Positions 7,871-42,953 of a stretch of DNA of 64,000 nt are shown one piece after another (within the stretch, counting starts at the first letter, position 1; every line of letters begins with the position of its first letter). The stretch lies in NCBI RefSeq assembly GCF_008370685.1, contig NZ_VTZU01000027.1, positions 1-64,000 on the forward strand, in the 5' to 3' direction. The notes beneath the pieces are model-generated. The model was not told the DNA's origin. It was given only the letters and a program-made list of their open reading frames with translations, and searched no databases. Made by a program: the position numbers and the translations under genes. Source of the DNA: Aquimarina sp. RZ0 (GTDB lineage Bacteria; Bacteroidota; Bacteroidia; Flavobacteriales; Flavobacteriaceae).

Positions 7871-8033
7871 ATACGATTTATAACTAAAAATTTCGCATAT
7901 TCATCGTTTCTTTTTCCTTTCTACTTCGTTTAAAAAATAAACCGTAGCTATAGCTATGCTTGATTTTTTTTGCCTTGCATAAAGAAAAAATAATTCAATG
8001 AATTTATACGAATTTTTTAATCACAAATCGTAT
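7871..8033 (+). repeat. R1 repeat, copy A
   Basis: A 163-bp copy of repeat family R1. It starts ATACGATTTATAAC and ends CACAAATCGTAT; the centre is GTAGCTATAGCTATGC. The two halves pair imperfectly over their whole length. One extra T in the central T-run distinguishes it from copies D, E and F. Flanking tetramers are TATG (left) and TATT (right), so no exact duplication. The remaining 244 bases up to parC hold no gene I can support. Confidence 0.9.
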
Positions 8034-8277
8034 TAAATCAATCTTATATTTTACGCAATGCCAATAAAGAATACGGTAAATTTTATTAGTATTTACTGTC
8101 TGGTCGGAAATGATAAAAATATTGCGTTTTTTATACCTTAAAAAGCATTTGAAAATACGATACCTAATTTTCGCCAAGAATTAATATGGCATTCAAAAGA
8201 AAAGACAGAAATATAACCTTAATACCTTTGAATTTTTAAAGTGGAAATCTGAAAAAGACTATAAGTATTTACCCACT

Positions 8278-10974
8278 TTAAAATAACGAAGTTTGTTCTA
8301 CATCCCCATCTATTCCTAAATCTTTATCCAAATTAATCGTATCAATGTCTTTTTTTGACGAAGTATTGGTATCTGCACTGTTTGAATCCGGAGATGAGAC
8401 AGCCTCCTCTCCTACTACTTCTATTGCTTCTGCAGGGAGGTTTTCTGGTTCGTCATAAGGCAAGGGATCTAATAAATTAACCTGTTTAACTTTTTCGGTA
8501 GTTAACTGATTTCCTAAAGCTTTAATCCCTTTTATTGAAATAAATTCTTCAAGATTAATCTCATCATTTGGTTTTTGATCTTTACCTCTAAGCTTATTGA
8601 ATACTAATTCTATAATCGGTCTGTAATCTGTAGATACAATTTCTAAAAACGATTTCTGATGTTCTGTTATAAAAGTCTCTTCTCTATCAGGGTTGTCTAT
8701 TAAAAAGCGTTTTACATAATAGCGTTCTTTCTCACCATCCCAATATACCGCGGAGATAGGTTTGGTAGGTTTCCACTTTTCAAGCACAATCATATCAGCA
8801 TCAAAATGAACTGTTATTTCCGGAATAATGGTTTTTACCACTCCTTTTTGATTGATAACCAATAAACGGTCTTCTCCTTTAAATTCTCCTAACAACTCCC
8901 CTCTACCATCTACATTAAGTCGCCTTACAGCATCATCAAACCATATCTTTCGAGGTTTCAAAGTAGAAATCCCTAGCTCTTTAAGTTCTATTTTTTTAAT
9001 ATTATATTTTGTTACAATATTACCTTTTACCCCTCTACCTTTTATTAAAAGATCCGCAAAATCAAGATCGAATTTCAATTTCTTTATACTTCCTGCCTGA
9101 CGCAAATAAATAGATATCACCTCTGCTTCTCCATTAGGGTTTGCTGTAAAATAAGTGATTTTAGATCCTTTTTTACCTTGAGCAAGGTCATATTCTCTAT
9201 CTCTGGTAACTCCAGTTACCGCAAATCGTTTTACAAAAGAAGCTCCTCCTCTGCCATCCTGATAGATCATATTGTAAATCGTACGCTTATCTTTTTTCTT
9301 AAAGACTGCAACATGGATAATATCTTTGCCAACAAAAGTCTTGGCATCTACTTTAGTAATCATCATTTTACCATTACGAGTAAAACAAATAATGTCATCG
9401 ATATCTGAACAATCGGTGACATATTCATCTCTCTTTAGTGAAGTTCCTACAAAGCCTTCTTCTCTATTTACATATAGCTTTGTATTTCTGATAACCACTT
9501 TGGTAGCCTCTATATCATCAAAAATCCTGATTTCTGTTTTGCGTTCTCTTCCTTTGCCATACGTTTCTTTTAATCTTTTAAAATAAGAAACGGCATACGC
9601 TACTAAATGTTCCAAATGATGCTTAATCTGTGCTATATCTTCTTCTAGCGCCTCAATCTTCTGTTGCGCTTTATCGATATCAAACTTTGATATCCTTTTA
9701 ATCCTAATTTCCGTTAGGCGCACAATATCTTCTTCTGTAACAGGACGTTTCAGATGTTTAATATGAGGTTGTAATCCTTTGTCAATTGCCTTAATAACGC
9801 CTTCCCAGGTTTCTTCTTCTTCAATTTCTCGATAAATACGATTTTCTATAAAAATTCTTTCTAATGATGCAAAATGCCATTGTTCCTGCAATTCATTTAA
9901 TTGAATTTCTAATTCTTTCTTTAGCAGTTCCAGGGTATGATCTGTAGAGCGTCTCAGCATCTCAGAAACCCCTATAAAATTAGGCCTGTTATTTTCTTCT
10001 ATAATACAACCTAGCGGTGAAATTGATGTTTCACAATTGGTAAAAGCATACAACGCATCGATTGTTTTATCAGGAGAAATACCTGATGGGAGGTGTACTA
10101 ATATCTCTACTTCTGCAGCTGTATTATCCTCTATTTTTTTAATTTTAATCTTTCCTTTTTCATTAGCTTTAAGGATAGAATCTATTAAAGTAGTAGTTGT
10201 AGTTGAGAACGGTATCTCATTTATAATCAGCGTATTTTTATCTAATTGAGAAATTTCGGCCCGCACTCTGGCTTTCCCTCCTCGATTACCATCATTATAA
10301 TTTGTAAAGTCAGCAATTCCTGCCGTTGGAAAATCCGGTAGTATTGTAAAACGCTTACCTTGTAAATGCTTAATAGAAGCTTCTATAAGTTCAATAAAAT
10401 TATGTGGTAATATTTTAGTACTTAACCCTACAGCAATACCTTCTGCTCCTTGCGCTAACAATAAAGGAAATTTTACTGGGAGATTAATGGGTTCTTTTTT
10501 ACGACCATCATATGATAGTTGCCATTCTGTTACTTTGGGATTATATACAACATCTAATGCAAATTTAGACAAACGCGCTTCGATATATCTTGATGCAGCC
10601 GCCCTATCGCCTGTAAGTATATTACCCCAGTTCCCTTGCATGTCAATTAACAGATCTCGCTGACCTATCTGGACCATAGCATCTGCAATACTGGCATCAC
10701 CGTGAGGGTGATACTGCATCGTATGCCCCACAATATTTGCCACCTTATTATACCGACCATCATCCAGATCTTTCATAGAATGTAAAATTCTACGTTGTAC
10801 AGGTTTTAAACCATCTTCGATAGCAGGTACCGCTCGTTCCAGGATTACATATGATGCGTAATCCAGGAACCAATCTTTGTACATTCCGGTAACTTTGGTA
10901 ATCACTTCCTGAGGTTGATGATCCTCTGGAGCTAACTCGTTATGTAATTCTTCGTTTTCGTTTTCTATATCCAT
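8278..10974 (-). CDS. parC: DNA topoisomerase IV subunit A (ParC)
   Basis: The breakage-reunion subunit of topoisomerase IV, which decatenates chromosomes. It is a type IIA topoisomerase A subunit of 898 residues. Visible are HPHGDASI (89-96, quinolone-site region) and the active tyrosine Y130 in ASRYIEARL. A coiled-coil tower lies at about residues 330-480 and a beta-propeller-like C-terminal region at about 500-800. The tail is acidic and low in complexity (~840-898). It lies 28 bases downstream of parE on the same strand, which together with the divergence from GyrA supports ParC over GyrA. It is convergent with the phnA-like gene. A weak inverted repeat (8234-8244 with 8273-8283) overlaps the stop codon. 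Confidence 0.92.
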   Translation of the reverse strand: MDIENENEELHNELAPEDHQPQEVITKVTGMYKDWFLDYASYVILERAVPAIEDGLKPVQRRILHSMKDLDDGRYNKVANIVGHTMQYHPHGDASIADAMVQIGQRDLLIDMQGNWGNILTGDRAAASRYIEARLSKFALDVVYNPKVTEWQLSYDGRKKEPINLPVKFPLLLAQGAEGIAVGLSTKILPHNFIELIEASIKHLQGKRFTILPDFPTAGIADFTNYNDGNRGGKARVRAEISQLDKNTLIINEIPFSTTTTTLIDSILKANEKGKIKIKKIEDNTAAEVEILVHLPSGISPDKTIDALYAFTNCETSISPLGCIIEENNRPNFIGVSEMLRRSTDHTLELLKKELEIQLNELQEQWHFASLERIFIENRIYREIEEEETWEGVIKAIDKGLQPHIKHLKRPVTEEDIVRLTEIRIKRISKFDIDKAQQKIEALEEDIAQIKHHLEHLVAYAVSYFKRLKETYGKGRERKTEIRIFDDIEATKVVIRNTKLYVNREEGFVGTSLKRDEYVTDCSDIDDIICFTRNGKMMITKVDAKTFVGKDIIHVAVFKKKDKRTIYNMIYQDGRGGASFVKRFAVTGVTRDREYDLAQGKKGSKITYFTANPNGEAEVISIYLRQAGSIKKLKFDLDFADLLIKGRGVKGNIVTKYNIKKIELKELGISTLKPRKIWFDDAVRRLNVDGRGELLGEFKGEDRLLVINQKGVVKTIIPEITVHFDADMIVLEKWKPTKPISAVYWDGEKERYYVKRFLIDNPDREETFITEHQKSFLEIVSTDYRPIIELVFNKLRGKDQKPNDEINLEEFISIKGIKALGNQLTTEKVKQVNLLDPLPYDEPENLPAEAIEVVGEEAVSSPDSNSADTNTSSKKDIDTINLDKDLGIDGDVEQTSLF

Positions 10975-11002
10975 ACCTTTTTTGGGGCACTTTTTTGTAT
11001 CC

Positions 11003-12862
11003 TTACAATTCTTCTTCTACGGTATCTAATTCTACTTTTAAATTTTCTATAATAAACTCTTGTCTACTAGGTGTGTTTTTCCCCATATAAAAAGACAATA
11101 ATTCTTCTATAGATTTTTCTTTATCCAACATAACCGGATCTAAGCGAATATCATCTCCTATAAAATGTACAAATTCATCAGGTGATATTTCACCTAACCC
11201 CTTAAATCGGGTAATTTCTGGCTTTCCAGATAATTTATTAATTGCATCTCTTCTTTCTTGTTCAGAATAACAATAAATGGTTTCTTTCTTATTACGTACT
11301 CTAAAAAGAGGCGTTTGCAGAATATACAGATGTCCTTCTTTAATCAGTTCTGAGAAGAATTGCAAAAAGAAAGTAATCAATAACAATCGAATATGCATCC
11401 CATCTACATCTGCATCTGTAGCAATAACGATATTATTATATCTTAGATCTTCCAGAGATTCTTCAATATTGAGTGCAGCCTGCAATAAATTAAATTCTTC
11501 ATTTTCATACACAATTTTTTTACTCATATTATAGCTATTCAGCGGTTTTCCGCGTAAGCTAAAAACTGCCTGAGTATTTACATCACGAGATTTAGTAATA
11601 GAACCACTTGCAGAATCTCCCTCTGTGATAAACAAGGTGCTTTCTAAATTTCGATCTTTTTTACTATCGGTAAGGTGAATTCGACAATCCCGAAGTTTTT
11701 TATTATGCAAACTAGCTTTCTTAGCACGCTCTCTGGCAAGTTTACGAATTCCTGACAGGTCTTTACGCTCTCGTTCTGCTTGTAAAATTTTACGTTGCAG
11801 GCTTTCGGCAGTGTCAGAATTTTTATGTAGAAAGTTATCCAGTTTTGTTTTTACAAAATCATTTATATAGGTTCTTACCGTTGGTAAATCACCTCCCATT
11901 TCTGTAGAACCTAATTTAGTCTTTGTCTGACTCTCAAAGACAGGTTCCATAACTTTTATACTTATTGCCGAGACAATAGACTTACGAATATCACTAGCTT
12001 CATAGTTTTTACCATAAAATTCTCTAATGGTTTTTACGACTGCTTCTCTAAAGGCTGCCTGATGCGTGCCTCCCTGTGTTGTATGCTGCCCATTAACAAA
12101 TGAATGATATTCCTCACTATATTGCGTTTTACTATGCGTAATAGCTATCTCTATATCATTTCCCAAAAGGTGAATGATTGGATATAATCGATCATCATCA
12201 TTAATAGTATCAGAAAGTAAATCTCTCAGACCATTCTCAGAAAAATATTTCTCACCATTAAAAATAATGGTTAGCCCCGGATTAAGATATACATAGTTCT
12301 TAAGCATCTTGGCTACGTACTCTGTACGATACTTATAATTTTTAAAAATAGTATCATCCGGTACAAAAGAAACCTTTGTTCCTTTCCTACGAGAAGTTTC
12401 ATCCAGAGTATCCTGATTTGTTAAGTTTCCTTTTTCAAACTCTGCCGACGCAGATTTACCATCTCTGGTTGATTCTACCCTAAAAAACTTAGATAGTGCA
12501 TTCACCGCTTTTGTACCTACTCCATTAAGTCCCACTGATTTTTTAAAGGCTCTGGAATCATATTTACCCCCAGTATTCATTTTTGAAACAACATCCACCA
12601 CTTTTCCCAATGGAATACCGCGACCATAATCTCTTACAATCACCTTATCACCTTGTATAGAAATTTCTATGGTTTTGCCAGCTCCCATTACATATTCATC
12701 GATAGAATTATCTAATACTTCTTTTAATAAAATATAGATTCCATCATCTGCAGAAGATCCATCTCCTAGTTTACCTATATACATTCCTGGTCGCATACGG
12801 ATATGCTCTTTCCAGTCAAGGGATCGTATATTATCTTCAGTATATTTAGTCTCGTTATTCAT
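11003..12862 (-). CDS. parE: DNA topoisomerase IV subunit B (ParE)
   Basis: The ATPase subunit that pairs with ParC. The 619-residue protein has a GHKL ATP-binding domain at residues ~10-220 ([32 protein letters not shown]). The transducer domain follows ([12 protein letters not shown] at ~255). The TOPRIM domain has [11 protein letters not shown] (~415) and [10 protein letters not shown] (~490). It has the short ParE form without a GyrB insert. The start ATG at 12862 gives a normal N-terminus ([25 protein letters not shown]). It forms an operon with parC (28-base gap). Confidence 0.94.
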
Positions 12863-13030
12863 AAAATTCGGGTAGAATGCTTGCTAATATAAGGTTTCAC
12901 TTACAGAATTAAAATAGTCCAACTACAAAGTAATTAACAATTCTAAAACAGTTTTTGTTGATATTTGGTATACAATGAATTGATGAATCTAAAAGAAACT
13001 TAAAACTTAATATACTTACATTTTTTTTAA

Positions 13031-13130
13031 TTAAACTATCTCGGGACAAGCTCAAGAGATAGTTATTGGACAAAAACATTTCGATTTCAAGACAAAGCTT
13101 GGAGCATTTAAATCTCAAGTATCGATTAAA
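13031..13130. repeat. R2 repeat, diverged copy
   Basis: A degenerate copy of repeat R2: TAAACTATCTCGGGACAAGC near 13032, AACATTTCGATTTCAAGACA near 13075, GGAGCATTTAAATCTC near 13101, ATCGATTAAA at the right end. It lies between parE and the ArsR-family operon. The rest of 12863-13140 shows nothing else. Confidence 0.6.
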
Positions 13131-13144
13131 AGTAAAACTATTTG

Positions 13145-13187
13145 CGTAACCGAATGATTACATTTATATTTGTAACCAATCAGTTAC
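13145..13187 (+). promoter_or_regulatory. Promoter and paired operators of the ArsR/SRPBCC operon
   Basis: The -7 box TATATTTG (13165-13172) lies between two related dyads: GTAACCGAATGATTAC (13145-13160) and GTAACCAATCAGTTAC (13172-13187), 27 bp apart start to start. The arrangement is typical for an autorepressed ArsR-type gene. It also shows that translation starts at 13196, downstream of the promoter. Confidence 0.6.
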
Positions 13188-13195
13188 TTAAAAAT

Positions 13196-13522
13196 ATGAG
13201 AAGAGATGTTTTTCAGGCAATAGCAGATCCTGTAAGAAGAGATATTATAGAATTACTTGCAAATAAAACATTGACAGTAAATGAAGTAGCTGAAAAATTT
13301 GATGTAAGTCGCCCCGCAATCTCCAAACATTTAAAAATATTAAAAGAATGTGAGATCATACATATTAGCAAAAAAGGGAGAGAACGTTTCTGTCAAATTC
13401 AACCTAGAAACTTAATTCCTGCCTTCTTATGGATAGATCAATACAGAAATCTATGGGAAGAAAAACTAGACTCCTTTGAAAATTATTTAACCGAATTACA
13501 AAAAAACAAGAAAGATGAGTAA
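13196..13522 (+). CDS. ArsR-family winged-helix regulator (autorepressor type)
   Basis: A 108-residue DNA-binding repressor. The frame is open from a TTG at 13142, but that codon lies upstream of the -7 box and first operator, so I start at ATG 13196 (MRRDVFQAIADPVRR). The ArsR-type wHTH covers residues ~5-85: DPVRRDIIELLANK, then KFDVSRPAISKHLKILKE (recognition helix) and a short wing (ISKKGRERFCQI). There are no metal-binding cysteines of the ArsR/SmtB type, so it is probably not a metal sensor. It overlaps the SRPBCC gene by eight bases; this pair (ArsR regulator plus AHSA1-like SRPBCC protein) is a common operon in Bacteroidota and other bacteria. Confidence 0.9.
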   Translation: MRRDVFQAIADPVRRDIIELLANKTLTVNEVAEKFDVSRPAISKHLKILKECEIIHISKKGRERFCQIQPRNLIPAFLWIDQYRNLWEEKLDSFENYLTELQKNKKDE

Positions 13523-13970
13523 ATCAGACAATCGTACATTAACATTAGAAAGAACCTTCAATGCACCAATAACTTTGGTATGGGAAGCCTGGACACAATC
13601 TGAGCATATTGCTAATTGGTGGGGACCAAAAGGAATGGAAACCAGAGTGATTAAGCACAATTTTAGCGTAGGTGGTGAATGGGAATATCATATGACCATG
13701 CCGGATGGTACTGATTTTGTTTCAGATGGTATCTACTCCGCCATTATAGAATTTGAAAAAATAATTTCATCTGCAAACTTTAGACCTATGACCGAAGGGG
13801 TAGAAATACAGGCACTTTTTGAAAAAAACGGTGACAAAACTAATTTTACTTTCCATGTAGTGCATCCAACAGAAGAATATTCTAAACAACAAGAAAAAAT
13901 GGGGTTTATGAATGGTTGGGGTTCTGTCTTTGATAGATTAAAAGAATATATTGGTACGCTTACTGTATAA
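13515..13970 (+). CDS. SRPBCC / AHSA1-like domain protein
   Basis: A 151-residue protein of the START-like SRPBCC fold, subgroup AHSA1 (activator of Hsp90 ATPase homologue). Family signatures are visible: RTFNAPITLVWEAWTQSEHIANWWGPKG near the N-terminus, GGEWEYHMTMPDG in the middle, and MGFMNGWGSVFDRLKEYI at the C-terminal helix. These proteins bind hydrophobic ligands in a cavity; the ligand here is unknown. It is translationally coupled to the ArsR regulator (eight-base overlap) and followed by a terminator at 13981. Confidence 0.9.
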   Translation: MSKSDNRTLTLERTFNAPITLVWEAWTQSEHIANWWGPKGMETRVIKHNFSVGGEWEYHMTMPDGTDFVSDGIYSAIIEFEKIISSANFRPMTEGVEIQALFEKNGDKTNFTFHVVHPTEEYSKQQEKMGFMNGWGSVFDRLKEYIGTLTV

Positions 13971-13980
13971 ATTTGATTCT

Positions 13981-14020
13981 AAATCCTAACTTTTTAAGAT
14001 GAAGTTAGGATTTCTCTTTT
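13981..14020 (+). terminator. Terminator after the SRPBCC gene
   Basis: Perfect 10-bp stem AAATCCTAAC (13981-13990) with GTTAGGATTT (14004-14013), 13-base loop, followed by CTCTTTT. Confidence 0.8.
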
Positions 14021-14130
14021 AATATCTAAGTTTATATAAAAAAATAGTGTTAGCAATCCTGCTATCTTCTATTATTTCCTTTTTGGGAACTGTATTAGAT
14101 CAAAAAGGTATTATAAAAATCATAGAAATA

Positions 14131-14200
14131 TTACAATTCAAAGTATTTATTAAAAAATGCATTTTGATTTAGAGACAAGTTTTGGAGCATTTATAGACAA
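14131..14200. repeat. R2 repeat, degenerate fragment
   Basis: Similar to the middle of R2: GTATTTATT near 14143, GCATTTTGATTTAGAGACA near 14159 and TTTGGAGCATTTATAGACA near 14181. It lies in the 356-bp gap before the AraC pseudogene; nothing else is recognised in the gap. Confidence 0.45.
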
Positions 14201-14735
14201 AATCCGCAATTCTGGTTAAAAAATAGTCATATTTTCCTTGTAATATTGTACTACTATTTCTGATTTAAAATTTACTCTTTATGTAAGTGTTTTAAGACCA
14301 AAAATAGTATCTCAGAACACTACGGAATGCAAAAAGAAAGATATCAGAATAATAGAATTAGAAATGCAATAACCTATATTGAAAAAAACCTGAAGGAGAA
14401 ACTCACTCTTACCAAAATAGCACGATATGCTTGTTATTCTAAATATCATTTCATACGCATTTTTCATGCCTCCACAGGAGAAACTGTCTCTGATTATATA
14501 CGGAAACGTAGAATTTCGGAATCAGCGATCAAACTAGTTACCACCAATGATTCAATTCTACATATTGCATTACAATATCAATTTGAATCACAACAGGCAT
14601 ACACGCGTTCTTTTAAATCTATTTATAGGAATAAGTCCTGGACGTTATAGAAAAAAGGAACACAAATTTGTTCCTTTTGAACGATATGTACTATCCCCAG
14701 AAAATAAAAATTCACTCAAGAATAATCACTCTATG

Positions 14736-14897
14736 ATACGATTTGTGATTAAAAAATTCGTATAAATTCATTGAATTATTTTTTCTTTATGCAAGGCAAA
14801 AAAATCAAGCATAGCTATAGCTACGGTTTATTTTTTAAACGAAGTAGAAAGGAAAAAGAAACGATGAATATGCGAAATTTTTAATCACAAATCGTAT
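14736..14897 (-). repeat. R1 repeat, copy B (inside the AraC pseudogene)
   Basis: A 162-bp R1 copy in the opposite orientation to A, D, E and F. Its two ends are nearly identical (both ATACGATTTGTGATTAAAAA when read inward), whereas other copies have ATACGATTTATAACTAAAAA at one end. It is flanked by TATG on both sides (14732-14735 and 14895-14898); the rebuilt gene needs only one. Confidence 0.92.
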
Positions 14898-15043
14898 GGC
14901 TCCAAAAATAAGAATAATCAAGAATAAAACCCTAATCGGAATGCGGATCCAAACCTCTTTATCCGAAAACAAGACATCTAGTTTATGGCAACGTTTTATG
15001 CCTAGACGAAACGAAATAAAAAATAACCTGAATACGGGGTATT

Positions 15044-15206
15044 ATACGATTTACGAATAAAAATTTCGCATCTAATGACATTCTTTTTCTACTATATTTT
15101 CTTCATAAAATGAAACAATAGCTATGGCTATTCTTTAATTTGATTCATCAATCTAGCGAAAAATCCTTGCCATTATTTTTACGAAATTCTCACCCGTAAA
15201 TCGTAT
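15044..15206 (+). repeat. R1 repeat, diverged copy C (inside the AraC pseudogene)
   Basis: A 163-bp element with the same plan (ends ATACGATTTACG.. and ..CGTAAATCGTAT, centre ATAGCTATGGCTAT, halves pairing imperfectly), but only partly similar in sequence to the other five copies. It is probably a second subfamily. It is flanked by TATT on both sides (15040-15043 and 15204-15207). Confidence 0.85.
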
Positions 15207-15646
15207 TACTCCATTCAAGTATATGATAAAGAAATGACATATAAAAAATTTAATGATACTGTAGTCTTTGAAAAATGGGCTGCTATAGAAATTGATACTA
15301 TAGATACAATCCCAGATGGCATGGGATCCTATAGCTTATCAGGAGGAATCTATGCCGTATTTATACATAGAGGACCTGTAAGTACTTTTAATAAAACCGC
15401 AAGCTATATTTACGGAACCTGGTTATCAAATTCTGAGTACGAAATTGATGATAGGGATCATTTTGAGATATTAGCAGATAAATACTACGGTCCTCAGCAT
15501 CCAAAATCAGAAGAAGAAGTCTGGGTGCCTATTAAGAATAAAAAGAATAATTCGTAAAGCCAAACCCTTCTTCTCTCCTCATTTTCCAAAAATGTATACC
15601 TTTATAGATAAAGTAATAAATACACGTTACTATTGGGATATCATAT

Positions 15647-17368: not shown

Positions 17369-17388
17369 TCATATTCTTAAGGTTTTTT

Positions 17389-17537
17389 TTATAGCTTATT
17401 ATAAACATTGTTCACATTAAATAAAGATAACAATTCCTTATCTGATAAATTAGTAGTGGCTACATCATCCGTAGAACCGTTCATCAAATAATCGGTTGTG
17501 GTATCTAATGCTTTGCAAAGTTTTTAACTTTGCTGTA
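17389..17537 (-). pseudogene. Relic of an XRE (HTH) regulator cut by R1 copy D
   Basis: On the minus strand, from the edge of R1 copy D to TAA (17391-17389), a frame reads KLCKALDTTTDYLMNGS, then DKELLSLF near the end. This is the typical segment just after the HTH of small XRE regulators (KALDVTTDYLLNG). Near the R1 edge the frame is interrupted in an A-run (one base missing), and the N-terminal HTH half is absent. The start of the gene was therefore lost or replaced when R1 and R2 arrived. It is convergent with the CrtI-like gene. Confidence 0.65.
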
Positions 17538-17699
17538 ATACGATTTATAACTAAAAATTTCGCATATTCATCGTTTCTTTTTCCTTTCTACTTCGTTTAA
17601 AAAATAAACCGTAGCTATAGCTATGCTTGATTTTTTTGCCTTGCATAAAGAAAAAATAATTCAATGAATTTATACGAATTTTTTAATCACAAATCGTAT
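17538..17699 (+). repeat. R1 repeat, copy D
   Basis: A 162-bp R1 copy almost identical to E and F. It abuts the XRE relic on the left and an R2 tandem on the right. Flanks are TGTA (left) and TATA (right), so there is no exact duplication. Confidence 0.92.
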
Positions 17700-17705
17700 A
17701 ATAAG

Positions 17706-17894
17706 AGTAAACTACCTCATGGCAACTCCAAGAAGTAGCTATCAGAAAAAAAAATCAATTTTGAGGTAAGCCTCCTTAAAAACTCGATTATCGAGTAAAC
17801 TACCTCGGGGCAAGCCCACAAGGCATTTATTGAAAAAAAACATTTTGATTTCGAGGCAAGCCTCGGAGCATTTAAATCTCGATTATCGAGTAAA
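17706..17894. repeat. R2 repeat, two tandem copies
   Basis: Copy 1 (17706-17795) is degenerate: GTAAACTACCTCATGGCAA, ATCAATTTTGAGGTAAGCCT, ACTCGATTATCGAGTAAA. Copy 2 (17793-17894) is the best R2 copy: TAAACTACCTCGGGGCAAGC, AACATTTTGATTTCGAGGCA, CGGAGCATTTAAATCTCG, ATTATCGAGTAAA. Each holds internal dyads (CGAGGCAAGCCTCG and CTCGATTATCGAG). Only two units, with no spacers of constant length, so it is not a CRISPR. Confidence 0.8.
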
Positions 17895-17955
17895 ATATCC
17901 ATTTTCAAGCTTACTCATCATCGTGCTCCCCTAAAAAATGAATATTTAGGAAATA

Positions 17956-17992
17956 AAAAAGTATCGCAGGGTTACAAGCTACGATACTTTTT
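17956..17992. terminator. Bidirectional terminator hairpin
   Basis: 11-bp stem AAAAAGTATCG (17956-17966) with CGATACTTTTT (17982-17992). It lies 164 bases beyond the stop of the vWA gene (minus strand) and 588 bases beyond the CrtI-like gene (plus strand). Confidence 0.65.
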
Positions 17993-32339: not shown

Positions 32340-32354
32340 ATCTACACTCTTTTA

Positions 32355-33008: not shown

Positions 33009-33026
33009 TTGTATATATGTTAAAAA

Positions 33027-33932: not shown

Positions 33933-33995
33933 AATTTTCTACCTTCTTTATTAACTAGAAGGTGAAGATACTCTAAACCTTTCTATTAATCAATT

Positions 33996-34448: not shown

Positions 34449-34502
34449 ACACAGTAAGACGTACTAATTTTAAATTCATTACACAGAAAAAAGAGCCTTT
34501 TA

Positions 34503-34835: not shown

Positions 34836-34839
34836 ATAC

Positions 34840-35769
34840 TTATTGTTTAATTTTTGAAGCTAATAGATAAATAACTGCCATTCTCACTGCTACTCCATTT
34901 TGTACCTGATCCAATATTATGGCTTGATTAGAATCAGCAACATCACTCGTGATCTCTACTCCACGATTTATGGGCCCTGGATGCATTATTACAATTTCTT
35001 TATTGAGGCTTTCTAATAATTCTTTACTTACTCCAAATTGTTGGGTATATTCTCTTGTAGACGGAAAATAGCTAATTTCCATCCGTTCATTCTGTACGCG
35101 AAGCATATTTGCCACATCACACCACTCCAAAGCTTTCTTAAGGTCTGTTTCTACGACAACCCCTAGCTTTTCTATATATTTAGGAATTAACGTTTTAGGA
35201 CCACACACTTTTACTTCTGCGCCTTGTAACTTAAGTGCAAAAATATTAGACAGCGCAACTCTGGAATGCAAAATATCACCAACAATCACTACTTTTTTTC
35301 CTTGCACTTCTCCAAGTTTCTCTCTAATAGAGTATGAATCCAGCAATGCCTGAGTAGGATGCTCGTGCGCTCCATCACCTGCATTTACAATACTTGCATC
35401 CACATGTCTGGATAGAAATACACCAGCACCGGGATTGGGATGTCTCATTACGACCATATCAACTTTCATTGATAAAATATTGTTTACAGTATCTATTAGA
35501 GTTTCCCCTTTTTTAACCGAAGAAGAAGCTGCAGAAAAGTTGATTACATCCGCAGAAAGTCTTTTCTCTGCTAATTCAAAAGACAACCTTGTTCTAGTAC
35601 TATTCTCAAAAAATAAATTAGCGATCGTAATATCTCTGAGCGAGGGAACTTTCTTTATTGGACGATTAATTACTTCTTTAAAATGATCGGCTGTTTCAAA
35701 GATAAGATCAATATCCTCTTTGGTCACATATTTAATTCCTAGTAAGTGATTTACACTTAATTCGCTCAT
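34840..35769 (-). CDS. pyrB: Aspartate carbamoyltransferase catalytic subunit
   Basis: Condenses carbamoyl phosphate with aspartate in pyrimidine synthesis. The 309-residue protein carries the carbamoyl-phosphate signature FFENSTRTRLSFELAEKRL (~53-71), the lysine loop SSVKKGETLIDT (~82-93), HPTQALLDSYSI (~137-148) and MHPGPINRGVEI (~259-270). Second gene of the pyrR-pyrB operon (28-base gap). Confidence 0.95.
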   Translation of the reverse strand: MSELSVNHLLGIKYVTKEDIDLIFETADHFKEVINRPIKKVPSLRDITIANLFFENSTRTRLSFELAEKRLSADVINFSAASSSVKKGETLIDTVNNILSMKVDMVVMRHPNPGAGVFLSRHVDASIVNAGDGAHEHPTQALLDSYSIREKLGEVQGKKVVIVGDILHSRVALSNIFALKLQGAEVKVCGPKTLIPKYIEKLGVVVETDLKKALEWCDVANMLRVQNERMEISYFPSTREYTQQFGVSKELLESLNKEIVIMHPGPINRGVEITSDVADSNQAIILDQVQNGVAVRMAVIYLLASKIKQ

Positions 35770-35797
35770 TAATTTTAATTCTTAATTTATTTTTATT

Positions 35798-36337
35798 TTA
35801 ATTATTGATTAGATATACAGCATCTTCTCCTTCATTCTCCAACCAATGCACCTTTACTTTTTCTTGATTAATCGCATCAACTTGTCGTCCCCGATAATTA
35901 GGTTGTATTGGTAAATGCCTGCTAAAACGCCTATCTATCAATGTGAGTAATTCTATCTCACTAGGTCTCCCAAATGATTGTATTGCTGTTAATGCAGAAC
36001 GTATACTTCGCCCTGTATACAGCACATCGTCAATAAACACAACCCGCTTATCTTCTACCACAAAATCAATATGTGTTTTATTAGCTTCTAAAGGCTTTTC
36101 TCCTCTTCTAAAATCGTCTCTATAGAAAGTTATATCAAGATAGCCCAACTTGACATCAGAAAGTGAATAATCTTTCTCTAAAACCTCTTTTATTCTATCA
36201 GCAAGAAATACGCCTCTAGGCTGCACTCCTATTAGTACTGTTTCTCTAAAATGAGTATGATTTTCAATTAATTGACAAGCTAAACGGTGCAGAATTATAT
36301 GTACCTCTTTCGCACTAAGTAGTAGTTTCTGACTCAT
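35798..36337 (-). CDS. pyrR: PyrR bifunctional pyrimidine regulator / uracil phosphoribosyltransferase
   Basis: A PRTase-fold protein of 179 residues. The frame extends three codons upstream to a TTG, but ATG 36337 is preceded by TTTGGAGATT, a rare good Shine-Dalgarno, and is the likely start. Motifs: GVQPRGVFLADRI (~40-52) and the PRPP loop VVFIDDVLYTGRSIRSAL (~95-112). In other bacteria PyrR either attenuates pyr transcription or acts as uracil phosphoribosyltransferase. No attenuator structure was recognised in the 28-base gap to pyrB. Confidence 0.93.
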   Translation of the reverse strand: MSQKLLLSAKEVHIILHRLACQLIENHTHFRETVLIGVQPRGVFLADRIKEVLEKDYSLSDVKLGYLDITFYRDDFRRGEKPLEANKTHIDFVVEDKRVVFIDDVLYTGRSIRSALTAIQSFGRPSEIELLTLIDRRFSRHLPIQPNYRGRQVDAINQEKVKVHWLENEGEDAVYLINN

Positions 36338-36482
36338 AATCTCCAAATGGATATCTGGAATACAAAAGTAATGAAAATTTAGAATTATTAAGGCAAATAG
36401 GATAGTATAAGTTTTTTATCTGTTTGTATACTTGAAACCAAAAACATTTTAGTCGAAACAACAGAACCCATCAAAATTCGTC

Positions 36483-36812
36483 ATGACCTATGTAGATATG
36501 AGCACAATTGCGTATAAATTCGATCTAAAATTAATAGAAAATACAAAAGGAAAAAAAATAGACTATATTGATCGAGCGTGTAACCAACGTTCCTAATAAT
36601 TTGGAAAAGGTTATTTGTTTTCAGAATTACTCAAAGCAACGCGAGAAACCACTATACTTCTACGTTTTGCAGACTACAGCTAATCATTCAGGATGTATCG
36701 TTATAGCCAGTTCAACAGAGATGTTAGAGAACATACAGAAATAGATTATGGAATCCTTGCATACTTACAAGGTAATATCATGACAATAAAGAAGGTATTG
36801 AGTACGCTTTGA
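36483..36812 (+). pseudogene. Possible decayed coding frame
   Basis: A single reading frame of 110 codons starts with ATG and ends with TGA but is broken by three in-frame TAA stops (two adjacent, near 36595-36600, and one near 36680). Between stops it reads protein-like segments, e.g. KFDLKLIENTKGKKIDYIDR, LLKATRETTILLRF and DYGILAYLQGNIMTIKKVL. No family recognised. Codon use looks more gene-like than the flanking AT-rich DNA. It may be a dead gene or chance; the rest of 36338-36995 shows nothing. Confidence 0.3.
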
Positions 36813-36995
36813 GTTGACTTTTCACTCTATAACTTGTCTATCAAAAGTGATCTGCAATACTATATATTATTATTGGATTGCAACACAGTCACCACATAAA
36901 GACAGTGTCACAATCCAATACAAAAAATACAAAAAAATTATCTTTAAGAATTAAGTTCGAAAAAAGGCTTTACACCATTTTCGTCTTAAAAATTA

Positions 36996-39104
36996 TTAGT
37001 TTTTGATCAATTTTTTAATTAGCGTATTCCCTGAGTTATTAATTTTCAATATATAAATACCTCTTGGAAGAATTGATATATCTATAGGATTTGAATCAAT
37101 TGATTTACTCATGATTTGTTTCCCTTGAATATTAAATATTTTGATAGATGTAATACCACCTCTATTCAAATTTCTAATATTTATATACTTATTTGCAGGA
37201 TTAGGATACAACGAGATTGTTTCTGAATCTGGGTTGATATCTCCATTAGACAGAACAGTATCGTGAGTAAACTCAACTATTCCCCAGCAAGCATCAAAAG
37301 TTCCGATATCCAGAGTTATAATATCCGAATCATCTGTTTGAAGTGATAAATCAATTGAGGGTTTACCCGGCAGGTGAAGCTTAGCTCCTATTATAGACTT
37401 CCCAAACATATCTTTAGGGATTTTTACTGAGATACCATCATGAGTTTGCGCACTATCCTCTGCTGCATTGTATTTTCTGTTCAGAAGATGAAGCACATAA
37501 GGTGCTGACAAATCAGAAGAGGAAATTCTAGGGAAAGTAGAGATTAGATCATTACGAACAGTATTCTCACTTAAAACATCTATTTTCCAGGAAAGACGTT
37601 CTATCATACTATCCGCGTTATCAATGGAAACAACATTAGAACCACTCTCGTTTAGTATTTGATTCTGCTCTGTTGTAAAGTATTGAACATCACTATCGTG
37701 AATAACTATTTCGTATTCTTTCAGTTGCTCGGCAGTAGGTGCGATTGGACGATCGGGATCCCCAAATATTTTCAGATCAAATGAAATATTCTCTTCTACC
37801 AAGCGCTCTAATGTCTGACGTGCTGTAATACTACCGTCCATTCCTCCTTCGAGGAGTGAAGCATACACAGAATATGCAAGTGCCACATTTGAAACCGCTT
37901 TATAATCGTCAAGTAATTCACCATGATTATGAATGAATTGATAAAGATCGGCAAGATTTTCTGACCCCAGATCCCAGGTATCATTGCCTCCTATCCATAC
38001 ATTTCCTGGAATAGTAAAAATAGAGCCTGTGGCATATGCTTGAGCAATCCAGCCACGAGACTGACGAGGAGCACTCCTGTCATACAAAGCTTTAAACGCA
38101 TCAGGATACGGGAAGTATATCAAAGTCTTATCAAGTTCCTCAGCTGCCTTATAGTGTAATATTGGCTTAAAAGGGGGGCTTTTTTCAGTTTCATGAGCAT
38201 GGAAAAATTCACCAGCAAGATAGGTCATACGATTAGAGAAAATATACCCTCTTGGTTCAATTAGATTCGTTGTTGCCCCAATTGCGATTCCAGGTCTTAT
38301 CGTATCAATATATTCAAACAACTCTTCCATCACCTCATTAAGTGCTTGGCGCTGAAAGTAAACAAAATCTTTATAAAGAGGAATATTCCCTTCAATACTA
38401 TATGCTTGACTTTTATAACTTTCAAGAGTGAACCCTTTATCTAATAAAAATTCACGGTAGTTGAAACTATCAATTTCAGAAATTTCCATACCGTTCAATT
38501 CTTCAGTCGTGTATTTCTCTTTCATGTATTCTCTAAATCCATTCATGGAGTGAATAGAAAAATCTCCTCCCAACCAATGCACCGTTCTAGAAGCGGATGT
38601 TTGCGAATCGAACATCATATGAGTCACCTGACTTAGATCCATTCGATCAACCTGATACTTAAGCCATTCCAGAAATTCTGGTCCGTGATGGCTCTGCCAG
38701 TTATGAGTTTGTCCCATGTACGACTCTGTACTCCAGGGGATATTATTACCATTGAGATCCTTTGCCCAGTTAGATTCTGGATCTTCCATAAAGTCGATCA
38801 TCCATTTCCAACCCCAGTCGAATTCTCCACGACCAAAGTAATACTTGTCATTTGATGTTTGATTTTCTACCCTTGTGATCCATTCATCCATGGTCGTATC
38901 GGATTCAATACTTCTATTTGGCATATGTCCCCAGAAGACTCCATCAGCTTTATACTGATCATAATTAACAGGAGTTGCACTTGATTCCTGAGTAAACAAT
39001 ATCATAGATTTTTTAATAGGGCCATTTTGCGTGCTTGTATCTATTTGTGCAAATAAATTATTCAAAACAAAGCAAAAAGCTGTAAAAAGAAATACTTTTT
39101 TCAT
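36996..39104 (-). CDS. Secreted glycoside-hydrolase-like protein with T9SS sorting tail
   Basis: 702 residues. Signal peptide MKKVFLFTAFCFVLNNLFAQ. Residues ~30-410 look like a TIM barrel of the beta-galactosidase/GH42-like kind (FGRGEFDWGWKWMIDF; QVTHMMFDSQTSASRTVHWL; FSIHSMNGFREYMKEKY; PGIAIGATTNL). An alpha/beta region (~420-520) resembles the trimerisation domain of GH42-like enzymes, and a beta domain follows. The last ~75 residues are a type A T9SS sorting domain (SLYPNPANKYINIRN...). It is probably exported across the outer membrane; the substrate cannot be named. It stands alone, with no SusC/SusD pair nearby. Confidence 0.78.
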   Translation of the reverse strand: MKKVFLFTAFCFVLNNLFAQIDTSTQNGPIKKSMILFTQESSATPVNYDQYKADGVFWGHMPNRSIESDTTMDEWITRVENQTSNDKYYFGRGEFDWGWKWMIDFMEDPESNWAKDLNGNNIPWSTESYMGQTHNWQSHHGPEFLEWLKYQVDRMDLSQVTHMMFDSQTSASRTVHWLGGDFSIHSMNGFREYMKEKYTTEELNGMEISEIDSFNYREFLLDKGFTLESYKSQAYSIEGNIPLYKDFVYFQRQALNEVMEELFEYIDTIRPGIAIGATTNLIEPRGYIFSNRMTYLAGEFFHAHETEKSPPFKPILHYKAAEELDKTLIYFPYPDAFKALYDRSAPRQSRGWIAQAYATGSIFTIPGNVWIGGNDTWDLGSENLADLYQFIHNHGELLDDYKAVSNVALAYSVYASLLEGGMDGSITARQTLERLVEENISFDLKIFGDPDRPIAPTAEQLKEYEIVIHDSDVQYFTTEQNQILNESGSNVVSIDNADSMIERLSWKIDVLSENTVRNDLISTFPRISSSDLSAPYVLHLLNRKYNAAEDSAQTHDGISVKIPKDMFGKSIIGAKLHLPGKPSIDLSLQTDDSDIITLDIGTFDACWGIVEFTHDTVLSNGDINPDSETISLYPNPANKYINIRNLNRGGITSIKIFNIQGKQIMSKSIDSNPIDISILPRGIYILKINNSGNTLIKKLIKN

Positions 39105-39865
39105 TTGTGAGGTTTTAAAAGTGTTAAGTTTTAATTGTGGTTTTAATTTTAATGTATTAAATTCTAATTGTGTATCATATATTACTTTATTAATGAGTTT
39201 ATTAGGTTATTTTTTTTTAATATTAGTGTTATCTTATATTTCAAATTCTTTTTCCGTTTCTACAAAACATACACCGTTAGGTACATTGTTAAAATGAAAA
39301 TATATGAGTAGGATGATATTTTATCTAATTTATTATTCAATAGCACTTTTCTATTATAATCCCTAAGAGATAATTTTCACCCTTTATAATTTCTGTTAAT
39401 ATATAGTAACCATGAATGATCTCTCCTGAAACTCTCCTTGACGCATTCGTAACATTACTGAATACAACTACTATATGGTACTAACAGACATCGATCAATA
39501 ATAATCCTCATAATTTTTAGGTTTTATCATTCCTATTATCCGTGTTGCAAATATATATTGGAGACATTTTCTTTAACTCATCAATATTTACAAGTATATA
39601 TTCTATTTTAACCCAAAAGTACACTTATCATCTTAAGTAAGTTTATTTGTGATATATTTTACAATTTTTAACAATTAATTCACATTATAATTTAAGTATC
39701 TTAAAATCTGAATCATCGCACTTTGATTAGTAGCTAGCAGTACTCTAAAATGTTAGCCCATTTAATAACATATTCCATCCAGGCATTTTGAATATTTTGC
39801 AAAAGATGTTGATGAACTACTATAAAAATTCATTGACATTACTATCTAAAACAGAGAATGCACTT
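39105..39865. other. Long AT-rich non-coding stretch
   Basis: Upstream of the glycosidase-like gene. No coding frame, RNA or repeat was recognised apart from a chance-level similarity near 39401 to one arm of the palindrome at 212-241. Confidence 0.5.
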
Positions 39866-39912
39866 TCTCGAGGCAAGTCTCTTAGTATTTGAATCTCGAT
39901 TATCGAATAAAA
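39866..39912. repeat. R2 repeat, partial copy
   Basis: CTCGAGGCAAGTCTC, TATTTGAATCTCGATTATCG, AATAAA: the right half of R2 only. Confidence 0.55.
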
Positions 39913-40126
39913 AAGTAAATATATAAATTAAGTTTTTCTAGATTTAGAATTGAACTCAAAATCATAAATCTGATCGAATCAGCATAAAATCATGCGAATA
40001 GACCTCCTTATAAATTGAGATGCCGTATTGAGATCGGTAAAACTGTTGATCGCATCAATACAACTACAGGAGATCCGTCCTCAATACTCTACTAACTAAC
40101 ATTAAGGTGTTATTTCTACTATACTT

Positions 40127-40288
40127 ATACGATTTATAACTAAAAATTTCGCATATTCATCGTTTCTTTTTCCTTTCTACTTCGTTTAAAAAATAAACCG
40201 TAGCTATAGCTATGCTTGATTTTTTTGCCTTGCATAAAGAAAAAATAATTCAATGAATTTATACGAATTTTTTAATCACAAATCGTAT
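40127..40288 (+). repeat. R1 repeat, copy E
   Basis: A 162-bp R1 copy almost identical to D and F. Flanks ACTT (left) and TATT (right), no exact duplication. The sequence between it and 40576 contains nothing I recognise. Confidence 0.92.
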
Positions 40289-40575
40289 TATACAACTGTA
40301 GCACCCTCAAATTAGACCGTCAGTGTAATTATAGTTTGACAACCAGTAGGCATAACCTAATCTGAATAAAGCAAAGTGATCATTAATTAGGAAGTATGCA
40401 AATGCAGGAGAAACAAGAAAATAATAAGAACTTATTCAAGATCTTCCTATACGTACATAATAAAAGCCACTAAGAAAAGTATTTAATTTTTTTCATAAAA
40501 AATAGTAGCCTGATTGGTTACCAAATTTATCATAAACGGCTTTTACAATAATGTAAATAGATCAAAAATATAGGC

Positions 40576-40606
40576 AAAAAAAAGAGGTCGTTTACCAGAC
40601 AACCTC
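40576..40606 (-). terminator. Terminator of the 32-codon gene
   Basis: On the minus strand GAGGTTGT, 7-base loop, ACGACCTC (8 bp with one T-G wobble; 40606-40584), then eight T (40583-40576). A strong intrinsic terminator, 37 bases after the small stop codon. Confidence 0.75.
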
Positions 40607-40642
40607 CAACACAAATTTATAAAAATACATTAGACATTTTTT

Positions 40643-40741
40643 TTATTTGCGCATCGCATAACTAGATGCACCTGGAAGGTCTCTTAAAAAATCAATAACA
40701 CTTTTTAAGATAAGTTCAATAGAAGCGTAAAAATAATTCAT
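40643..40741 (-). CDS. Candidate small protein of 32 residues
   Basis: A 33-codon frame, ATG (40741-40739) to TAA (40645-40643). The peptide starts MNYFYASIELILKSVIDFL and ends PGASSYAMRK: an aromatic N-terminus, an amphipathic helix of about 18 residues, a Pro-Gly break and a short cationic end. It is too short for ordinary gene finders. Support comes from the transcription signals: a TTG-N20-TATATTTA promoter ending 29 bases upstream and a T8 terminator downstream, so a transcript of about 190 bases is expected. It could instead be a non-coding RNA with a chance frame. No homologue known to me. Confidence 0.4.
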   Translation of the reverse strand: MNYFYASIELILKSVIDFLRDLPGASSYAMRK

Positions 40742-40769
40742 CTCTGTGTGATTTTAGGATTAATTATAG

Positions 40770-40800
40770 TAAATATAATTATTTATTAACAATTAATCAA
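40770..40800 (-). promoter_or_regulatory. Promoter of the 32-codon gene
   Basis: Minus strand: -33 TTTG ending in TTG (40800-40798), 20 bases, then TATATTTA (40777-40770), one base from the TAnnTTTG consensus. Confidence 0.45.
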
Positions 40801-41119
40801 ATATTATGTTCATTAATTGTTAATAATATTTCATAATACTAAATTTTATAGTTATAAAATATAAAAAAATTCAAATAAAACATATCTAAGTAGTTTTTTT
40901 CTTACTAAAATTGTTGATAACTATTGTTTTACTCTATTTGTTAAACACACAATACTATCTGCGGTTTTCATACTTGATAAAACCGAATTTTAGTCTTCTT
41001 CTTGTCATTCTCCGTATAAAGGACTCACTCAAAATAATACATATACCAGAGTTCGTTATTACACTCTTAATAATTCACAACAAGCCATCACAAAACAAGC
41101 GTATGTTTGTATTAAACTG

Positions 41120-41127
41120 TACCTTTG
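41120..41127 (+). promoter_or_regulatory. -7 box directly before the helicase start codon
   Basis: TACCTTTG lies only four bases before the ATG at 41132. If used, the mRNA would be leaderless or nearly so. No good -33 element is visible, so it may be chance. Confidence 0.35.
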
Positions 41128-41131
41128 CCCT

Positions 41132-42439
41132 ATGGTTAATACGATCAAGCAAAGACACATCCTTAATAAATTGGGAATTGAATCATTGAATCCCATGCAG
41201 GAAGAAGCTAAACTAGCAATTACCTCAAGCGATAATATTATCCTGCTTTCCCCTACAGGAACAGGAAAAACATTGGCTTTTTTACTACCTGTCATAGCCG
41301 GATTAGATAGTAATTGCATAGAAATTCAGGTTCTAATACTTGTGCCATCCAGAGAATTAGCCATTCAGGTCGAACAGGTAGCAAGAGACCTGGGATCAGG
41401 TTATAAAATTAACGCTGTATATGGTGGAAGATCCGGATCACAAGATAGGTTAGACTTAAGACATCGTCCAGCTGTTCTTATCGGCACACCTGGTAGAATA
41501 GCAGATCGATTAAGAAGAGATAGTTTTTCTGTGGAACATATTCAAACTATCGTACTTGATGAATTTGATAAATCTCTAGAAGTAGGTTTTGAATCAGAAA
41601 TGATCGAAATATTCAATGCACTGCCCAAAATTCAAAAAAGAATACTTACTTCTGCTACACAAGGTGTAGAAATTCCGGAATTTATCGGTTTAGAAAAACC
41701 AATACAAATAAATTATTTAGACGATAACTTTTCTCAATTACAGTTAAAAACGATTGTATCCGAAACAAAAGATAAACTCCCTGCATTAGTGAAAGCATTG
41801 TGCAATCTAGGCAACCAACCAGGAATCATCTTTTGTAATTTTAAAAATACAATTCAGCGTGTCAGTGATTTTCTCCACCAGAACTCAATCAGTCATGGTT
41901 GTTTCTATGGAGGTATGGAGCAAAAAGATCGAGAAAGAGCATTGATCAAGTTTCGTAATGGTACACATCAGATTATTATTGCTACAGATCTTGCGGCTAG
42001 AGGCATTGATATTCCTGAGATTAAGTTTATTATTCATTATCATCTTCCTCTCAAAAGCGAAGAATTCACTCATAGAAATGGTAGAACTGCCCGAATGAAT
42101 TCTGAAGGAACTGCCTATATTCTAAAATGGAAAGATGAAGAATTACCTGTATTCATAAAAGATGCAGAAATCGTAGAATTAAAAGATGCTGCTGCCCCAT
42201 CTGTCCCAGAATGGAAAACATTATTTATTACCGGCGGAAGAAGAGATAAAATATCTAAAGGTGATATTGCAGGATTATTCTTTAAACAAGGAAAACTTAA
42301 CAAAGACGATCTGGGTGTCATAGAAATTAAACAAGATTGTGCATTTGTTGCTGTACGTACCTCTAAAGTAACGAAAACTATAGAAATGGTCAATAATACC
42401 CGATTAAAAAAGAAAAAAGTACGTATCTCTATTATTTAA
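41132..42439 (+). CDS. DEAD-box RNA helicase, DbpA type
   Basis: 435 residues. Q motif near LNPMQEEA (19-26); motif I SPTGTGKT (40-47); Ia PSRELAIQ (~72-79); Ib GTPGRIADRL (118-127); motif II is DEFD (143-146) instead of DEAD; III SAT (~178); V RGIDIP and VI HRNGRTARM (C-terminal helicase core, ~285-325). The final ~75 residues (FITGGRRDKISKGDIAGLFF...) match the DbpA RNA-binding domain, which in E. coli binds 23S rRNA hairpin 92, so a role in large-subunit assembly is likely. The start ATG 41132 is needed to keep the Q motif. Confidence 0.92.
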   Translation: MVNTIKQRHILNKLGIESLNPMQEEAKLAITSSDNIILLSPTGTGKTLAFLLPVIAGLDSNCIEIQVLILVPSRELAIQVEQVARDLGSGYKINAVYGGRSGSQDRLDLRHRPAVLIGTPGRIADRLRRDSFSVEHIQTIVLDEFDKSLEVGFESEMIEIFNALPKIQKRILTSATQGVEIPEFIGLEKPIQINYLDDNFSQLQLKTIVSETKDKLPALVKALCNLGNQPGIIFCNFKNTIQRVSDFLHQNSISHGCFYGGMEQKDRERALIKFRNGTHQIIIATDLAARGIDIPEIKFIIHYHLPLKSEEFTHRNGRTARMNSEGTAYILKWKDEELPVFIKDAEIVELKDAAAPSVPEWKTLFITGGRRDKISKGDIAGLFFKQGKLNKDDLGVIEIKQDCAFVAVRTSKVTKTIEMVNNTRLKKKKVRISII

Positions 42440-42528
42440 TGAGTTTTACACCTATTTCCTTGTTTTAAAAACACCTGATTAAAACCAGAAATCTGAATGG
42501 ATAACTTTTATCAGAAAAAGGTATTCTA

Positions 42529-42791
42529 CCAGTCTTAGATGAAATCGCCGTAAACTACCTCGGGGCAAGCTCAGGCATTTATTGAAAAAAAAAAAACATT
42601 TTGATTTCGAGGCAAGCCTCGGAGCATTTAAATCTCAATTATCGAGTAAACTGAATCAAATTATTTTTTAATTCAGGCAAGAAAGAAAATTCGTAGATAG
42701 TAGACACTATCAATGCTTCTTATTTCATAGCACTCATCTTATAGAACAAAAAGAAATGATTTTAAGGTAATTTTATGCGAGAAATGGTATT
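42529..42791. repeat. R3 repeat, interrupted by R2
   Basis: Left part 42529-42556 (AGTCTTAGATGAAATCGCCG, TAAACT) and right part from 42646 (TAAACTGAATCAAATTATTT, TTAATTCA) to GGTATT at 42791 match the uninterrupted copy at 18041-18155. An extra ~60 bases sit in the right part (about 42683-42745). R2 lies between the parts, and R1 copy F begins at the last base. Confidence 0.6.
42551..42651. repeat. R2 repeat inside R3
   Basis: TAAACTACCTCGGGGCAAGC, an A12 run, ACATTTTGATTTCGAGGCAA, GCCTCGGAGCATTTAAATCT, CAATTATCGAG, TAAACT. TAAACT occurs at both edges, but once in the R3 copy at 18 kb, suggesting a 6-bp target duplication. Confidence 0.75.
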
Positions 42792-42953
42792 ATACGATTT
42801 ATAACTAAAAATTTCGCATATTCATCGTTTCTTTTTCCTTTCTACTTCGTTTAAAAAATAAACCGTAGCTATAGCTATGCTTGATTTTTTTGCCTTGCAT
42901 AAAGAAAAAATAATTCAATGAATTTATACGAATTTTTTAATCACAAATCGTAT
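42792..42953 (+). repeat. R1 repeat, copy F
   Basis: A 162-bp R1 copy flanked on both sides by TATT (42788-42791 and 42951-42954). It lies between the convergent helicase gene and rny. Confidence 0.92.

Follow-up and report, generated by a model that had tools for sequence, protein, structure and literature searches.

A 160-bp inverted repeat of Aquimarina sp. RZ0, probably a miniature element moved by an IS630-clade transposase, with a one-strand hairpin

The 64,000-nucleotide stretch of Aquimarina sp. RZ0 analyzed here (contig NZ_VTZU01000027.1, positions 1 to 64,000; hereafter the window) contains six copies of R1, an apparently gene-less inverted repeat of about 160 bp that folds into one long hairpin. 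What kind of element is R1, which protein moves it, and does its fold matter? With a probability of roughly three in four, we consider R1 to be a non-autonomous 160-bp miniature inverted-repeat transposable element (MITE) that is moved by a transposase of the IS630 clade, with a hairpin on one strand that is under selection.

R1 copies and their target-site duplication

An earlier note on this DNA had located six copies in the window. All six were recovered, and a BLAST search of the window with copies E and C (E <= 1e-3) returned no seventh. The copies are listed below, each with its better-folding strand.

7872..8032, minus strand: R1 copy A, 161 bp with one inserted base; flanks TGA and TTA
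14737..14896, plus strand: R1 copy B, 160 bp, in the opposite orientation; flanks TGA and TGG, one mismatch
15045..15205, minus strand: R1 copy C, 161 bp, diverged subfamily; TTA duplication at 15042-15044 and 15206-15208
17539..17698, minus strand: R1 copy D, 160 bp; TAA duplication at 17536-17538 and 17699-17701
40128..40287, minus strand: R1 copy E, 160 bp, the reference copy; TTA duplication at 40125-40127 and 40288-40290
42793..42952, minus strand: R1 copy F, 160 bp; TTA duplication at 42790-42792 and 42953-42955

Copies D, E and F were identical in sequence, A had the one extra base, B had 3 mismatches (98.1%), and C was 72% identical over 98 bp. These alignment identities bear out the earlier description of five near-identical copies and one diverged subfamily. 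Copy F sits between convergent DEAD-box helicase and RNase Y genes. The closest RNase Y genes with a species name, those of A. latercula and A. amphilecti, are 95% identical to this one, as suits an Aquimarina; the genome's own record may be missing from that comparison.

Element boundaries were determined from 71 copies taken from the window, 45 search loci and further fetched stretches, each with 20 flanking bases on both sides. The base to the left of the palindrome was the same as the base to its right in 65 copies; T came before it on the left in 70 of the 71 and A after it on the right in all 71. The element is therefore TACGATTT...AAATCGTA, 160 bp, and all 71 listed copies measured 160-161 bp. 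A 3-bp direct repeat, T-N-A with N taking all four values, flanked 64 of the 71 copies, compared with a mean of 29.6 and a maximum of 43 when the flank pairs were shuffled (1000 shuffles). In the window the repeats were perfect at C, D, E and F (TTA, TAA, TTA and TTA) and had one mismatch each at A and B. The earlier note had assigned a 4-bp TATN flank to B, C and F and had left D and E unflanked. The actual duplication is the 3-bp TNA, and with the boundary placed as above both D and E have clean 3-bp repeats; the TATN reading arose because a palindromic T-A-T was counted as flank.

Two filled sites agree with this duplication. In the first, an A-type copy lies within a C-type copy with TCA on both sides, and the empty counterpart is identifiable from a local match read by eye. 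Comparing the joined site with copy C without gaps gave 41 and 55 of 157, figures that an offset and an internal gap make uninformative. In the second, a C-type copy with TTA on both sides lies within an IS630 gene that is uninterrupted there in the relative G003. A further copy, at L080:16293 and not among the 71, is flanked left and right by GTA; this speaks for a duplication of 3 bp rather than for a constant TA context. Conservation at the same sites, which the earlier note would have taken as a sign against mobility, was not observed: the relatives' RNase Y loci contained no full-length copy by pattern (11 of 80 loci, 6-kb flanks). These loci also gave no clean empty site orthologous to copy F; as the spacer is not conserved there, the two internal filled sites were used instead.

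Copy number and genomic placement

The R1 end-to-end pattern (ATACGATTT, 130-160 bases, AAATCGTAT) occurred at 312 sites in the genome (7,041,311 bases in 259 contigs), and its reversed control at none, which excludes chance. The count represents exact-ended copies, apart from those with changed or partial ends. When the best 40 of 472 candidates from a similarity search were scored, 40 sites were 100% identical to copy E. Identical copies made up 42 of the 71 with both flanks. A second count, which drew on more loci and dropped matches below 90% or not full length, gave 45 identical among 76 A-type copies. Because so many copies are identical, R1 appears to have spread recently. The earlier view of a mobile, recently amplified repeat is upheld by these numbers, and copies are not confined to the window, which the earlier note would have counted against mobility. 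With 312 similar hairpins, this bacterial genome bears a heavy load of repeats, to which some of the assembly breaks are probably due; contig L171 ends, and L179 begins, within an R1 copy. No full-length R1 was found in 18 small contigs, those not masked at their ends (~233 kb; L161-L165, L167, L168, L170-L180), where the genome average predicts ~10.

None of 48 copies lay within a called open reading frame (ORF), although ORFs covered 84% of the 847,056 bases considered. Three called ORFs extended 1-30 bases into a copy. Simple ORF calling was used with the elements in place, so that a gene cut by R1 would count as intergenic. With 8 edge copies left out, 40 copies were classified. Base counts predicted 7.1 of them between convergent, 21.6 between tandem and 11.3 between divergent genes; the observed numbers were 22, 15 and 3.

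The earlier note had proposed an undescribed MITE or a repetitive extragenic palindromic (REP)-like family, and among the best-ranked matches in the open-licence literature no title or abstract opening describes R1. Its MITE-like form stands. As a REP-like element, R1 would be moved by a REP-associated tyrosine transposase (RAYT) of the HUH type, and its palindromy, its high copy number and its position outside called genes, with the excess between convergent genes, would suit such an origin. To our knowledge, HUH elements leave no target duplication. The 3-bp duplication carried by 64 of 71 copies, with which both filled sites agree, makes the REP/RAYT mechanism highly improbable, although no search aimed at a RAYT was made.

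A candidate mobilizer

No ORF of 100 aa, the scan threshold, was found within an R1 copy, and by inspection 160 bp is too short for a transposase. This is in line with the earlier statement that R1 has no gene of its own and needs a protein from elsewhere, to which a candidate can now be added. Tip patterns that excluded the R1 interior returned only more copies, tip variants and mini-elements; a shorter pattern led to an IS630 element, the longer element with similar ends and a transposase that the earlier note had suggested looking for. It was found in relatives. The locus in G001 is 1122 bp long, with tips TACCATTTCTTTTTTGAATTTTCTCA / TACCATTTCGGATTTAAAATTTCTCA and IS630 domains in two frames, and with its DDE half as query, relatives were detected in 10 of 35 genomes. 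In G003, besides further partial ones, three full copies were delimited at 1113-1114 bp, with TAA on both sides in all three. The left tip is TACGATTTACGAGATAATATTTCGTAT in two of these copies and TACAATTT... in the third, which has both frames open (175 + 191 aa).

OrfB scored 131.8 bits with the IS630 equivalog NF033545 (cut-off 100) and 81.8 bits with DDE_3. Its matches in PDB were weak: Sleeping Beauty (E 5e-5), SETMAR and one unrelated synthase (E 0.01). When the 27-bp R1 tips were compared with the left end of the G003 element, 20 positions matched for each tip of A, 22 for the left tip of C and 21 for its right tip, whereas shuffled tips matched at 8.2 positions on average and at 16 at most (2000 shuffles). 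R1 thus has terminal inverted repeats, is short and multicopy, leaves a duplication of constant length and shares its ends with an autonomous element, as MITEs do.

In L306, L320, L321 and L322 alike, the junction of the two IS630 frames is a T-run/A-run with a shift of +1 (or -2); the run is T6A4 in G003 and G012. This suggests programmed frameshifting or slippage. In the mechanism that we propose, a two-frame IS630-clade transposase, with a helix-turn-helix (HTH) in the first frame, DDE_3 in the second and the two presumably joined by a frameshift, would recognize ~26-27 bp at each R1 end, act on R1 in trans and insert it at T-N-A, duplicating those 3 bp.

An IS5-type (IS1031-like) transposase was also considered as the mover. 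That group makes TNA duplications, and the genome has PF01609 elements with 3-bp repeats such as TTA and TAA. The ends seen in these elements, GGGCATCTCTAAAAACTATT, GAGTATGTTTAAAAATAA and GAAGTGATTTAAACTTTTA, are unlike TACGATTT, whereas IS630 elements do match the R1 tips and leave TNA; at the 13 of 23 PF01609 loci whose ends were examined, no element was itself bounded by TACGATTT. An IS5-type mover is accordingly very unlikely.

Other insertions were noted in the course of this work. An insert of ~155 bp in an IS630 copy (L329:184-337) has ends GAGCATGTTTAAAAAC / AGAGTATGTTTAAAAAC, like the ends of a PF01609 element in L116, and is perhaps a second, IS5-type MITE family. Among other insertion sequences, the element in L118 has ends TATTTTAGGGCTTTTT, and that in L121 has CTCACCTTACGCA with a 7-bp repeat; a sequence resembling the latter, as judged by eye, also interrupts the IS630 copy in L333. 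Inverted repeats AACCCGAAAAATTCA around an IS630 element of this genome were tried as its ends and rejected, and the ends were placed at TACCAATTT.

Spread and form across relatives

The search of the genome and its relatives that the earlier note had advised showed a family spreading beyond the genus. Among 55 relatives, the end-to-end pattern occurred 14 times in G007, 7 in G005, 2 in G012 and once, apparently by chance, in G001, and a strict pattern for the R1 superfamily matched no more than 3 among 395 genomes from the order. A covariance model built from 17 hand-picked representatives had matches in 41 of 76 chosen genomes and 14 of 35 genera: 27 of 33 genomes in the genus (own genome included), 12 of 37 from other genera of the family and 2 of 6 from other families, both of one genus. 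The best 38 candidates or fewer were scored per genome under strict filters, and copy counts are therefore lower bounds; several positive genomes had a single match only.

Elements with the same centre and similar length had other ends (ATACCATTT, ATACCAGTT, TACCAATT). Most full copies measured 158-161 bp even as the ends changed, and the apical part was kept. The exceptions were a pattern match of 151 bp in G005, model matches of 153, 162, 165 and 182 bp, and a length of 215 bp in L203. Twenty further elements, picked from the model matches listed (eight from one genome), were 159-161 bp long, with identical T-N-A triplets on both sides in 12.

A hairpin on one strand

The earlier note had read R1 as a full-length inverted repeat; a strand-specific signal is added to that reading here. 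Orientation was set by the conserved centre, and the folding strand reads GCATAGC..GCTACGG. As RNA, this strand gave a better fold than the complementary one in every element of two sets (17 of 17 and 20 of 20), the second set having been found with a model of the folding strand. Copy E gave -50.8 kcal/mol (z -9.0) versus -27.4 (z -3.9) for the complement. RNAalifold gave -48.9 with double changes in 33 of 53 pairs, and for the complement -16.3 with 27 of 45. With the structure derived from the same alignment, 96.2% of pair cells were paired, and 148 cells had double changes, as compared to 44.7 in shuffles (0 of 500 reached the observed value) and 17-31 when the partners were slid.

In a strand-neutral arm alignment, the first set had 109 G-U and 36 A-C, and the second had 132 and 31. 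Pooled, there were 241 G-U and 67 A-C, with G-U ahead in 9 of 9 clusters (75% identity grouping), and the distinct position/pair types numbered 40 G-U versus 18 A-C. A keto mutation bias was tried as the source of the G-U excess; positions outside pairs showed no keto excess (576 keto : 607 amino), which speaks against a general mutation bias. Rfam 15 gave no family at the gathering score for the window copies or for loci of five relatives; the one match was at chance level (E 0.078), far below that score.

Judged from these sequence patterns, the one-strand hairpin seems to be kept by selection. The hairpin, mostly 158-161 nt with a conserved apical part and present in several genera, is read here as a sign of selection on an R1 transcript, and its near-fixed length and one-strand form in many flavobacteria hint that the folded form is also useful. 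More tentatively, and at somewhat less than even odds, R1 may be a mobile RNA hairpin of the whole bacterial family: spread or tolerance of the MITE would depend on a transcribed, strand-specific 160-nt structure, and transposition would carry a functional RNA cassette whose ends are exchanged and whose length and apical part are near-fixed.

Weighing the evidence

Several observations weigh against R1 being an IS630-mobilized MITE with a selected hairpin, and the first group concerns the mobilizer. No intact matching IS630 element was found among the five matches to one DDE query in this genome. Two resemble the G003 element closely, but neither is continuous: a C-type R1 and another insertion break up one, and a ~155-bp foreign insert and the contig end the other. 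The third, at L320:592-1713, carries TACCAATTT tips and is flanked by TTA at either end; its frames are open (165 + 194 aa), with INNAGFH where the others have the catalytic IDNAGFH/MDNAGFH, that is, Asn at the second catalytic Asp. Eight stops interrupt the fourth, and the fifth is a short, weak match. Damage affects all three of the best relatives of the G003 element in this genome. We infer that R1 is moved in trans by this clade, whose active source element in this strain may have been lost, broken or not assembled. Of the three full copies in G003, two are broken in their second frame, and the changed tip TACAATTT belongs to the intact one. The triplets flanking the elements of G001 (TAA/TTA) and G012 (CAA/TCA) do not match. 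Co-occurrence was weak: with one query, 7 of the 17 genomes that were covered by both searches and had at least 10 model matches gave a transposase match, 2 of them weak. The query had no match in G004, G005, G007, G017, G021, G026, G028, G030, G031 and G033, each with at least 10 R1 model matches; in these genomes the role may fall to transposases that are more distant. The usual duplication of IS630 elements is TA. The partner departs from this rule (TAA in all three G003 copies, TTA at the relative in this genome), and a TNA duplication is unusual for IS630.

The second group concerns the fold. Mini-elements without the R1 interior exist: derivatives of 26-28 bp keep one tip and have TNA flanks, and relatives have forms of 45 and 53 bp, the former at three G012 sites. 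Beside tandem genes there was no orientation preference (18 sense, 14 antisense), and a host-level function, which was judged by orientation, was not retained. Recent substitutions were few (8 G-U, 3 A-C). As single-stranded DNA, copy E folded in the same direction, with -27.0 (z -5.2) versus -16.8 (z -2.2).

The derivatives, which retain little beyond the tips, and the absence of orientation bias favor a plain IS630-type MITE. On this view nothing but the two ends counts, the interior has no role, and the strand asymmetry was inherited or arose by accident. Such an element does not readily account for full copies that mostly hold 158-161 bp and the apical part while their ends vary, for the double changes in 33 of 53 pairs, or for a G-U excess that extends over all 9 clusters and many positions. 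We regard it as doubtful, if far from negligible. The DNA energies suit a different alternative, in which single-stranded DNA rather than RNA is selected and one strand folds during replication, repair or transposition. DNA also tolerates G-T pairs better than A-C. The asymmetry of copy E is larger as RNA, and double-stranded intermediates are what one would expect from a 3-bp duplication and a relative of the DDE type; selection on a DNA hairpin is unlikely. We continue to favor an IS630-mobilized MITE with a selected one-strand hairpin.

A ~28-bp R1 remnant at L109:9812 resembles the product of a deletion between short repeats in the stem base.

Other features of the window

A second dispersed repeat occurs at 13032-13131, 17796-17895 and 42552-42651, with parts at 17705 and 39868; it begins with TAAACTACCTCGGGGCAAGCC..., followed by GAGGCAAGCCTCGGAGCATTTAAATCTC. 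Its motif TAAACTACCTCG occurs 10 times in the fetched stretches, and in 3 of these an R1 end lies directly at the TAA. A 6S-Flavo RNA lies at 44662-44769 on the minus strand (104.8 bits). Two large divergent ORFs (54992-57769 and 58065-60845; 925 and 926 aa) overlap long inverted repeats with 72-87% complementarity, a candidate for gene conversion or inversion. At 63129-63344, two 108-bp units stand in tandem and are 73% alike.

Comparison with known systems

PIF/Harbinger-Tourist MITEs and their IS5 relatives make a 3-bp T..A-type duplication, as R1 does. R1 differs from them in that its candidate transposase is of the DDE_3/IS630 type and not IS5-like. With IS630 and the IS630-Tc1-mariner group, the R1 partner shares NF033545, DDE_3, the HTH and R1-like tips, and it differs by the 3-bp TNA. 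An IS630 clade with a 3-bp duplication bears on the variation in target-site geometry within that group. Published departures from TA in the group include TAA and TAAA in Fot and Fot-like pogo elements (PMC7386202) and TATA in Sailor elements (PMC8533490).

MITEs are usually treated as inert deletion remnants. The ends, length and one-strand pairing of R1 can be traced across 14 genera, which makes RNA-level selection on a MITE directly testable. R1 is one of a very common sort of tiny, gene-less mobile DNA and probably borrows its transposase from an IS630-type element. By their description in a MITE review, ERIC, Correia and Chunjie MITEs resemble it as short non-coding repeats in tens to hundreds of copies, with 711 copies of ERIC in Photorhabdus and more than 120 of Correia; the text of that review does not contain IS630, Bacteroid- or Flavobacter- (PMC10969869).

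In its working R1 is, by analogy, closest to RUP of Streptococcus pneumoniae, which is described as 107 bp long, present in 108 copies and having IS630-Spn1 as its proposed mover (PMC2229807). Like R1, RUP is small and gene-less, has IS630-like tips and inserts into insertion sequence genes. RUP inserts at TA (PMC2229807), whereas R1 duplicates TNA, is 160 bp long, occurs in several genera and shows covariation on one strand.

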